Positions 32,131 to 34,826 of a DNA stretch of 64,000 bases are shown here, in pieces. The notes beneath the pieces were generated by a model. The model had not been told where the DNA came from. It ran no database searches and worked only from the letters and a program-made list of their open reading frames with translations. Source of the DNA: Shinella sp. PSBB067 (GTDB lineage Bacteria > Pseudomonadota > Alphaproteobacteria > Rhizobiales > Rhizobiaceae); contig NZ_CP069303.1 in NCBI RefSeq assembly GCF_016839145.1, forward strand, positions 4,145,001 to 4,209,000, in the 5' to 3' direction. Made by a program: the position numbers and the translations under genes. Numbering within the stretch: the stretch's first letter is position 1; the number at the start of each line of letters is the position of its first letter.

Positions 32131-32397
32131 ATGGCCAATACAACCTCGGCTAAGAAGGCGACCCGCAAGATCGCCGCGCGCACCGCAGTCAACAAGTCGC
32201 GCCGTTCGCGCGTCCGCAACTTCATCCGCAAGGTCGAAGAGGCGATCGCCTCGGGCGATCAGGCTGTCGCAGCCGCGGCCCTGAAGGCCGCCCAGCCGGA
32301 ACTGATGCGTGCCGCCACCAAGGGCGTCCTTCATTCCAACACGGCTTCCCGCAAGGTTTCGCGCCTTGCCGGCCGCGTCAAGGCGATGACGGCCTGA
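32131..32397 (+). CDS. rpsT: 30S ribosomal protein S20
   Basis: S20 binds 16S rRNA early in small-subunit assembly. The 88-residue protein is rich in Lys and Arg and begins [20 protein letters not shown], with the standard [19 protein letters not shown] and the [19 protein letters not shown] end. GAGAGGCATAC lies before the ATG. It has its own promoter and a strong terminator, and lies immediately upstream of the dnaA leader as in other rhizobia. Confidence 0.97.
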
Positions 32398-32429
32398 TTA
32401 GCCCGAAAGAGCTATGCAATTTGAGTAAG

Positions 32430-32458
32430 GCCCGGTGCTTGCACCGGGCTTTTTCTTT
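32430..32458 (+). terminator. terminator of rpsT
   Basis: GCCCGGTGC pairs with GCACCGGGC (9 bp, TT loop) and is followed by TTTTTCTTT, 33 bases after the stop. A textbook intrinsic terminator; it isolates rpsT from dnaA. Confidence 0.95.
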
Positions 32459-32586: not shown

Positions 32587-32615
32587 TTGACAGCAATTTG
32601 AGTCAAGCGAATTTT
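32587..32615 (+). promoter_or_regulatory. candidate dnaA promoter
   Basis: A perfect -35 TTGACA (32587-32592) is followed 17 bases later by a weak AATTTT -10. A GANTC site (32600-32604) lies in the spacer, so methylation could affect use of this promoter. The start would give a leader of about 650 bases. Confidence 0.4.
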
Positions 32616-32726
32616 TATTTTTTTCGTTTTGCGGCCCTCCCGAAAGGCACCCGAAAACAAAGCCATTGATTCCTAATGGATTCTCCGGGAGGCGGCGATT
32701 CCGAGTCAAAAACGCCCCTCCGAGTC
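32600..32726. promoter_or_regulatory. cluster of six GANTC (CcrM methylation) sites upstream of dnaA
   Basis: GANTC occurs at 32600, 32668, 32679, 32697, 32703 and 32722 (start positions). In alphaproteobacteria CcrM methylates GANTC, and methylation state couples dnaA transcription to replication. A GC-rich sequence would carry well under one such site in this length by chance. Confidence 0.8.
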
Positions 32727-33266
32727 AACGGCTGCCCCTTAATATTGCGTAAAATTCGTGATTGATCTTGCTGCCTGATCCTGCCTAAATGCTTTCCACA
32801 GGGGGCACGGACACAGCCTTGAAGCGATCGTCGGCAAGACTGTCTCACGAGGCAGCGGCGGTTGTTTGTCCTCTGTGACGGAGCGGCTCCGCTTCGTAAA
32901 ATCATCCAATCGGCAACGCTTGCCCCAGGTGCCCAGCGGCACACTGGCAAGAGTTTTTGCGACCATCGGTTGCGCCGGTTGCGGGGCCGTGAGGGCGGCC
33001 GGATGATGGGGAGCATGCCCGCCGGACGCTCGACGAGGGAGCGGGCGGCGCGGCCACAAACGGGACTATCCGGCAGGGCATGACGCCCGATCGTTTGGAC
33101 CCGACTTGTGTTTGGAGAACAGGAACAGTGCCGGAAGTGGGGGCCGGCGCCGTTTGGGGCACCAGATCCCGGACCGGGCTATGGCTCGGCGCGGCCGGGT
33201 GATGGCAAACATGGAAGGCGCCGGCAGCGATGCCGGCGTGGCGAATTGAGCATGAAAGGCGGCAAG

Positions 33267-34826
33267 ATGCAGATGAATACGGCCAGGACGGCTGGTGCAT
33301 TCGCAAATGGGGAAAATACAAGACAGGCGCTCCCGCAAGAAGGGGCACAAGAGGCGGCGGGGGTTCCATCCGATATGAAGCATGACGCGCTTTTCGAACG
33401 GGTCAGTGCGCGCCTGAAGGCGCAGGTCGGTCCGGACGTCTTCGCGAGCTGGTTCGGTCGCCTGAAGGTCCACTCGGTCTCCAAGAGCGTCGTGCGCCTT
33501 TCGGTGCCCACGACCTTCCTGAAATCCTGGATCAACAACCGTTATCTCGATCTCATCACCAATCTCTTCCAGCAGGAGGATCCCGAGATCCTCAAGGTGG
33601 AGATCCTGGTGCGCACCGCCACCCGGGGCGTTCGCGCCGGCGCCGCCGACGAAGCCGCCGTCGCCGAGCAGCCCGCCCCGCAGGCCCAGCCGCGCCGCGC
33701 CTCCGCCGGTCCGCAGCCCGTGGCCAGTGCCGCCGCATCGGTTGCCGCCTCGGCCCAGCCGCGCGCCCAGCATTCCGGCCCGCTCTTCGGCTCGCCGCTC
33801 GACCAGCGCTACACGTTCGATGCCTTCGTCGAGGGCACGTCGAACCGCGTCGCCCTTGCCGCCGCCCGCACCATCGCGGAAGCGGGTGCCGGTGCCGTGC
33901 GCTTCAACCCGCTCTTCGTCCATTCCAGCGTCGGGCTCGGCAAGACGCATCTTCTCCAGGCGATCGCGCTCGGTGCCCTTTCGAGCGCCCGCAACCCGCG
34001 CGTCGTCTACCTGACGGCGGAATATTTCATGTGGCGCTTCGCCACCGCGATCCGCGACAACGATGCGCTCTCCCTCAAGGAAACGCTGCGCAACATCGAT
34101 CTCCTGATCATCGACGACATGCAGTTCCTGCAGGGCAACTCGATCCAGAACGAGTTCTGCCACCTGCTGAACATGCTGCTCGATTCCGCACGGCAGGTCG
34201 TGGTCGCCGCCGACCGCGCACCCTGGGAGCTGGAATCGCTCGATCCGCGCGTCCGCTCGCGTCTGCAGGGCGGTGTCGCCATCGAGATGGAGGCGCCGGA
34301 CTACGAGATGCGCCTCGAGATCCTGAAGCGCCGCCTTGCGGTCGCGCAGCAGGAAGACGCCTCGCTCGACATTCCGGTCGAGATTCTCAGCCATGTCGCC
34401 CGCAACATCACGGCAAGCGGCCGCGAGCTGGAGGGGGCCTTCAACCAGTTGCTCTTCCGCCGCTCCTTCGAGCCGAACCTGACGATCGAGCGCGTCGACG
34501 AACTGCTCGGCCATCTGGTCGCCGCCGGCGAGCCGCGCCGCGTGCGCATCGAGGACATCCAGCGCGTCGTCGCCAAGCACTACAACGTTTCGCGCCAGGA
34601 GCTGGTCTCGAACCGCCGCACGCGCGTCATCGTCAAGCCGCGCCAGATCGCCATGTACCTGTCGAAGACCTTGACGCCGCGCTCCTTCCCGGAAATCGGC
34701 CGCCGCTTCGGCGGACGCGACCACACGACCGTGCTGCATGCCGTGCGCAAGATCGAGGAGTTGATCTCGGGTGACACCAAGCTCAGCCACGAGATCGAGC
34801 TCTTGAAACGGCTGATCAACGAATAA
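33267..34826 (+). CDS. dnaA: chromosomal replication initiator protein DnaA
   Basis: DnaA opens the origin and loads the replisome, and also acts as a transcription factor. The 519-residue protein has domain I ([23 protein letters not shown], near residue 37), a variable Ala/Gln/Pro-rich linker, the AAA+ core with Walker A SVGLGKTH (near 225) and Walker [10 protein letters not shown] (near 280), and the C-terminal HTH with [14 protein letters not shown] (near 482). I chose ATG 33267 because AAAGG sits 6-7 bases upstream; ATGs at 33252, 33273 and 33375 are possible. Domain I is preceded by a 36-residue low-complexity extension. Confidence 0.95.

Follow-up and report, generated by a model that had tools for sequence, protein, structure and literature searches.

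The DNA that we analysed, hereafter the window, is a 64,000-nt stretch (C2:4145001-4209000) of contig C2 of a four-contig genome. In a comparison of DnaA proteins, the nearest named relatives were Shinella (Rhizobiaceae). The locus of interest runs from rpsT through a terminator-like hairpin and an intergenic leader of 854 bp to dnaA, with these features:

32131..32397, + strand: rpsT (30S ribosomal protein S20), an ORF matching NCBIfam TIGR00029 at 94.2 bits (cut-off 33)
32427..32452, + strand: terminator-like hairpin with a T tail, 3' of rpsT, found by a scan (11 pairs)
32600..32607, + strand: site A, GAGTCAAG, with GANTC at 32600-32604 and then an A/T tract; in 95/98 Rhizobiaceae leaders
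32610..32624, no strand: A/T tract AATTTTTATTTTTTT adjoining site A, conserved in leader alignments
32666..32672, + strand: site B, TTGATTC, with GANTC at 32668-32672; in 98/98 Rhizobiaceae leaders
32679..32684, + strand: site C, GATTCT, with GANTC at 32679-32683; in 95/98 Rhizobiaceae leaders
32697..32701, + strand: fourth GANTC site, not conserved; in 12/98 Rhizobiaceae leaders
32703..32707, + strand: fifth GANTC site (GAGTCAA), mostly in near relatives; in 21/98 Rhizobiaceae leaders
32722..32728, + strand: site F, GAGTCAA, with GANTC at 32722-32726; in 97/98 Rhizobiaceae leaders
32739..32753, + strand: CtrA-like box TTAA-N7-TAAA, a weak lead from reading the sequence; partly conserved, absent in several relatives
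32762..32790, + strand: predicted core promoter, TTGATC-N17-CTAAAT, with a start predicted near 32797
33252..34826, + strand: dnaA, matching TIGR00362 at 485.6 bits (cut-off 343.9)

The start codon of dnaA was placed at 33252 by conservation in an alignment of starts (33267 is possible). The stem of the hairpin after rpsT is kept in an alignment of 86 leaders. A search of the leader for known RNA families gave three weak matches, all to unlikely families and each scoring less than half to two thirds of the gathering score. (The CtrA consensus, for comparison with the box at 32739, is TTAA-N7-TTAA.)

The initial annotation of this DNA claimed six GANTC sites, at 32600, 32668, 32679, 32697, 32703, and 32722, along with three copies of GAGTCAA. 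All six sites are at these positions, and GAGTCAA is found at 32600, 32703, and 32722. On the + strand, every one of the six reads GAKTC. Relative to the start predicted near 32797, they begin at -197, -129, -118, -100, -94, and -75, so that the array lies 75-197 bp 5' of the predicted start and 530-652 bp 5' of the dnaA start codon. The annotation also held that their density is far above chance, and the composition of the 127-bp block does predict just 0.48 GANTC where 6 are observed. The window as a whole has 59 GANTC, and shuffles predict more (mean 334.6; we suspect that both strands of the palindrome were counted here, which does not remove the depletion). Depletion of GANTC in the window matches what is known for CcrM genomes (PMC3973325).

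We took a census of 2,460,385 bases (5,000 of them N) of the 4.61 Mb chromosome C2, or 53% of the contig, and found 2,543 GANTC (1.04 per kb). Six GANTC within 127 bp occur at just two places in these 2.46 Mb: 4177600, which is the dnaA leader, and 4309708, which is just upstream of a GcrA family match at 4309031-4309564 and so lies in the gcrA leader. With uniform random placement, 2,000 simulations gave a mean of 0.0 six-in-127 starts; even if GANTC stood at 4 per kb in intergenic DNA, taken to be 12%, 0.18 would be expected. Five GANTC within 127 bp are found at three more places in the census (708904, 863200, and 2473751). The last of these precedes, by 262 bp, an ORF whose match to the CtrA profile exceeds the cut-off, so the five densest places include the leaders of three cell-cycle master genes. 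(The ctrA leader, at C2:2473751-2473910, has five GANTC in 127 bp and six in about 160 bp. At C2:708904-709031, the ORF list shows no obvious cell-cycle gene.) As a control, we considered seven pentamers of the same design in our first sample of 2.06 Mb. None of them reached six within 127 bp (the maximum was five), even though GANTC is rarer in that sample than six of the seven. The longer word TTGANTC is rare in the sampled 2.46 Mb, with 115 hits (a palindromic site counts twice), and the only group of at least four within 200 bp is in the dnaA leader. The second-best group has three copies, at C2:4464329-4464515, adjacent to ORFs.

We found 135 dnaA leaders, or 130 distinct ones once identical leaders were merged. 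In a first pass over 86 distinct leaders, conservation was concentrated in islands. For the Rhizobiaceae, we used the 98 leaders that have rpsT and whose DnaA is at least 74% identical (another close leader lacks rpsT and was excluded); related strains remain among these, with 93 groups at 95% identity. Conservation in relatives, which the annotation had named as a check, holds for the sites at 32600, 32668, 32679, and 32722 (95-98 of the 98 leaders each) but not for those at 32697 (12/98) and 32703 (21/98). All four of the conserved sites, A, B, C, and F, are in register in 92/98 leaders and in 87 of the 93 groups (leaders at least 95% alike merged), and 92/98 leaders have at least four GANTC within 127 bp. 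The spacing is nearly invariant, although these counts omit leaders in which a pattern was not found. A to B is 68 bp in 88 of 92 measured leaders, and 67 or 69 bp in the other four; B to C is 11 bp in all 95 leaders in which the joint pattern was found; C to F is 42-44 bp in 95/95 measured leaders; and F to a -35-like TTGAT is 40 bp in 82 of 83 measured leaders (range 40-41 bp). When the 320 five-column windows of the leader alignment were ranked by conservation, those at B, F, C, and A ranked 1, 5, 11, and 13, and the windows ranked between them overlap these same sites, except for the -35-like TTGAT at rank 2. Even N hardly varies at the four sites: for instance, it is G in 97/98 leaders at site A, and at site B it is T in 96 and A in 2. 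Other family members have extra GANTC elsewhere, such as GAATC at 32658 in 55/98. Overall, GANTC is over-represented in the 98 leaders (612 versus 241.2 +/- 14.2 in shuffles). The observation made in the initial annotation is right, and it is stronger than could be known from one sequence.

We also considered 51 distant leaders: 31 from the first collection and 20 added later, from 20 added families. (In eight of the 51, rpsT was not detected and the boundary of the leader is therefore unsure.) GAGTCAAG is found in 20 of the 51, while its 1,120 anagrams average 0.48 leaders. It ranks first; the next-best anagram, which overlaps it, is in 9 leaders and the remainder are in at most 5. With family labels assigned by hand, it is in 12 of 31 families. 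It is missing from 31 of the 51 distant leaders, and just 4 of the 20 added families have it (L327, L333, L335, and L343). In other orders of the class, it was found in 1 of 28 loci, several of which have short leaders (29 loci were examined, and one belonged to the same order). In L029 and L136-L138, GAGTCAAG is close to the promoter and occupies the position of F, not that of A. As for N, the G form is in 20 distant leaders, versus 0, 1, and 1 for the other three letters. Furthermore, an A-like element could be located in 25 distant leaders, and in 10 of them its GA is replaced (by CT, AG, AA, TA, GG, or TG).

Our search for site A in the distant leaders used GTCAAG, which fixes N (other N were examined separately). 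GTCAAG is in 34/51 distant leaders, and its anagrams average 6.9 leaders. GANTC follows it by 66-84 bp in 20 of these 34 leaders, which gives 24 sites. TT precedes 17 of the 24, and N is G in 9, A in 7, C in 6, and T in 2, with GA..TC fixed. TTGANTC is found at this distance in 17/34 leaders, while ten other bins of equal width have 0 or 1 each. Among the 20 distant leaders with GAGTCAAG, 13 show GANTC at 66-84 bp. In 19 leaders a TGTGTAT-like element could serve as an anchor; it is preceded by GTCAAG at a distance of 183 or 193-195 bp in 12/19 and by GANTC at 113-116 in 16/19 (L123 and L135 lack both). In the 28 distant leaders that have rpsT and less than 74% identity in DnaA, the top 8-mers are CTGTGTAT and GAGTCAAG, in 15/28 each, and GANTC is again over-represented (128 versus 70.7 +/- 7.4 in shuffles). 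CTGTGTAT looks like a core promoter in distant dnaA leaders (L119-L138; 15/28). The spacing from A to B is 67-69 bp in the host's family (92 leaders, and also L031 and L113-L115) and 79-83 bp in L030 and 15 leaders of other families, a difference of about one helical turn. Site B looks like a methylation site preceded by TT, since families differ in its N but share GA..TC. Site A is more like a protein site, since its N is nearly always G and its GA is lost in 10/25 distant leaders; judging from these letters, it is not merely a methylation site.

In summary, the alignments show that A, B, C, and F are conserved at nearly fixed spacing ahead of a promoter-like element, and that counterparts of A and B are found across many other families of the order. 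The array is very probably a real, selected control element of dnaA.

We predict that the dnaA promoter is TTGATC-N17-CTAAAT at 32762-32790, by comparison with the rhizobial consensus. TTGAT-N18-CTAA is found in 85/98 leaders, five-letter windows within GATCCTGCCT keep 92-96%, and the exact pattern TTGATC-N17-CTAAAT occurs once in the host genome. Because this conserved promoter-like element is downstream of the array, the array would lie upstream of the predicted start and outside the core promoter. The initial annotation had instead proposed TTGACA as a -35 box, with the first GANTC site in the spacer. The letters TTGACA are indeed at 32587-32592, but they are not supported as a promoter: TTGAC is within 16 nt before A in 17/17 Shinella leaders with GAGTCAAG and in just 1/79 other close leaders. 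As it is nearly confined to Shinella and is absent from our scan with the sigma-70 consensus, we reject this promoter beyond the genus. The scan lists two matches in the leader (versus a mean of 0.4 in shuffles) and includes neither TTGACA nor TTGATC-N17-CTAAAT. Its only forward match, GTGACG-N16-TAAAAT at 32875-32902 (+ strand), is in a stretch that is poorly conserved in the 86-leader alignment, and we set it aside. Its other match is leftward, TTGACT-N18-GAGAAT from 32709 to 32680, and overlaps GANTC sites within the array. We also rejected a DnaA-box-like TTTCCACA at 32793, which is present in near relatives but is lost in the wider set. In Sinorhizobium meliloti, -10 boxes are described as poorly conserved (PMC3616915). 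The main text of the S. meliloti TSS paper does not mention dnaA. The EcpR1 paper describes a long putative 5'-UTR for S. meliloti dnaA and uses probes that extend to -222; this is consistent with a distant start but does not place it.

How might the array work? We think that the block most likely forms the central part of a control region that lies upstream of the dnaA promoter and is read through CcrM methylation. The methylation control is our inference, and we give a probability of roughly 0.5 that CcrM methylation of these sites affects dnaA transcription. Specifically, we propose that CcrM would methylate A, B, C, and F late in S phase. The origin is presumed to lie near hemE, about 420 kb away, and a fork coming from it would leave the sites hemimethylated as it passes. 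A reader of GANTC methylation, with GcrA as the first candidate, would then bind the array in its fixed geometry and alter dnaA transcription until CcrM returns; the sequence gives no direction (activation or repression). The annotation went on to infer that the array times dnaA expression to fork passage. We view this narrower claim as plausible but doubtful.

The host encodes CcrM: the RAMA domain matches above its cut-off. The CcrM profile NF050803, whose model name points to Caulobacter-type CcrM, scores 629.9 bits, which is the best of its table but is below the curated cut-off of 830. The host also encodes GcrA, by a profile match to the gene on contig C2 that has the cluster upstream. 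(A second GcrA-family gene is at C3:457205-457687, with 160.4 bits.) In Caulobacter-type promoters that are co-activated by GcrA and sigma70, GANTC lies within or next to the -35 and -10 boxes. If our predicted promoter is right, then dnaA does not fit this type: unlike the gcrA leader, the predicted core promoter has no GANTC in this genome, and the marks would thus not act on RNA polymerase directly. F, the last conserved site, begins 40 bp before the -35-like box, and GATTC is found at the box in 4/98 leaders. The GcrA motif in Caulobacter is given as YGAKTCK (PMC8725594). By our reading, none of the six host sites fits this motif, and site C fits it in relatives that have CGATTCT. One paper, under a heading about methylation-dependent DNA binding, tests the GcrA orthologues of S. 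meliloti and B. abortus (PMC3667746). The main text of a paper on CcrM from A. tumefaciens mentions dnaA six times, and none of these mentions reports a change in expression (PMC11514494). The core promoter free of GANTC, the poor fit to YGAKTCK, and the silence on dnaA expression in A. tumefaciens count against methylation control, as do the nearly constant N within the Rhizobiaceae and the lack of GAGTCAAG in 31/51 distant leaders and in 27/28 loci of other orders. The likeliest description seems to be a nucleoprotein array that is read by a methylation-sensitive protein. More speculatively, and with odds that we consider rather poor, this could be an old fixed-geometry epigenetic switch of the Rhizobiales, in which a reader (perhaps not GcrA) of TTGANTC and GAGTCAAG, in one helical arrangement, would couple the level of the initiator to the replication of its own gene. 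By analogy, such a switch would be Dam/SeqA-like logic that evolved on CcrM.

We also considered that the sites might bind a transcription factor that is indifferent to methylation, and whose motif (TTGANTC, or GAGTCAAG with the A/T tract) happens to contain GANTC. This is a serious alternative, although we think it somewhat unlikely. It would explain why, within the Rhizobiaceae, N and the neighbouring letters are constant at A and hardly vary at B, C, and F, why GTCAAG and GAGTCAAG persist in 34/51 and 20/51 distant leaders, why GA gives way to other letters in 10/25 distant A-like elements, and why TTGANTC is grouped at dnaA despite being so rare (115 hits in 2.46 Mb). However, a plain motif would not predict that N at site B varies among A, C, G, and T between families while GA..TC is kept. 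Also, extra GANTC come and go around the core, and the excess of GANTC is general in the leaders. And some of the 34 leaders with GTCAAG must be due to chance, as its anagrams average 6.9 leaders. A different protein, of the MucR type, might sit on the A/T tract and shield GANTC, which would create a locally hypomethylated region that is silenced or buffered. MucR keeps CcrM off GANTC in Caulobacter and S. meliloti (PMC5172544), and a conserved A/T tract does adjoin site A. (Allowing up to 3 mismatches, the host genome has a single copy of GAGTCAAGNGANTTTTTATTTTT, from this tract.) But dnaA is not among the MucR examples in the passages of that paper that we covered, and we consider shielding to be unlikely.

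Site A might instead be the -35 box (CTTGAC) of a leftward promoter, with the A/T tract as its UP element and with GANTC modulating transcription towards rpsT. The minus strand at A does have the A/T tract and then CTTGACTC, and the sigma-70 scan found the leftward match from 32709 to 32680. However, no -10-like letters are found at the expected place for A; across 96 leaders, the letters most often seen there are rich in G/C, and most are weakly conserved. And the leftward match begins at the site at 32703, which is present in just 21/98 leaders. Leftward promoters therefore seem very unlikely. We give still less credence to the idea that the block is part of the replication origin, even though it adjoins dnaA, carries an A/T tract, and, in a few relatives (L030, L031, and L113-L115) but not in Shinella, has DnaA boxes just upstream of site A. 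Allowing one mismatch to the DnaA box, there is none in the leader, and 99 close leaders average 0.11 each. Also, hemE, which marks the origin region of S. meliloti, is 420 kb away from the block. GC skew is too flat to place the origin. (Near hemE, at L292:2784-2840, there is a candidate origin, in which GANTC at 2784 and 2820 are accompanied by DnaA-box-like words at 2789 and 2832.) Finally, CcrM and the intergenic enrichment of GANTC in these bacteria are well known (PMC8725594, PMC3973325), and chance or simple enrichment might have produced the cluster. The simulations and the conserved spacing already refute this, and we give it almost no weight.

In the open-licence literature that we searched, we found no description of an array at dnaA, and a text search for GAGTCAAG listed unrelated matches. 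Three surveys used promoter windows of 200 bp (PMC11514494, and the conservation column in PMC3973325) or 400 bp (PMC2877005) upstream of the start codon. Since the array is at 530-652 bp, these surveys could not see it, which exposes a blind spot of short-window promoter surveys. The array also provides a multi-site and strongly conserved test case, in laboratory rhizobia, for the contested control of dnaA by GANTC. That its layout is kept in relatives suggests that cells may use the marks to adjust the amount of DnaA.

The array has parallels in several known systems. In E. coli, Dam and SeqA sequester oriC and the dnaA promoter. The host resembles E. coli in having a cluster of methylation sites before dnaA, but the methylase and the site are different, and SeqA is not expected in these bacteria. 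The dnaA promoter of Caulobacter is similar in that the same gene has the same methylation site, with a proposed role in timing by fork passage (PMC3973325). But a single CcrM site is described for Caulobacter dnaA (PMC3885167) instead of a fixed multi-site array, and whether GANTC methylation sets dnaA expression there is contested, with mixed evidence (PMC3885167, PMC3973325) that includes a mutation result which counts against our reading. Promoter P1 of Caulobacter ctrA also shares the logic of fork passage through GANTC, as hemimethylation of an upstream GANTC is needed (PMC8116508). It differs in having one P1-associated site, and in its gene and arrangement. In the Rhizobiaceae, the leaders of the replication initiator genes repABC also have clusters of GANTC, but this is a plasmid-type initiator, and the sites are in promoters, the origin, and the promoter of the antisense RNA (PMC11514494, PMC6090056).

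Another parallel is gcrA. In A. tumefaciens, which is from the same family, gcrA has 6 GANTC in the 250 bp upstream, is repressed by CcrM, and rises 2.8-fold upon depletion of CcrM (PMC11514494). This is likewise a cluster of six GANTC before a cell-cycle master gene, and our census, which is topped by the leaders of dnaA and gcrA, recalls it. The host's own gcrA leader (C2:4309597-4309981) has an array as dense as that of dnaA, and gcrA leaders keep a spacing of 10-9-13 in 25/30 relatives (26/30 if 10-9-14 is counted). But the main sites of host gcrA are 37-253 bp before the start codon and overlap the core promoter, given the S. meliloti start at -122 as we read it in PMC4414408. In contrast, the dnaA array is upstream of the predicted core promoter and has other flanks and another spacing.
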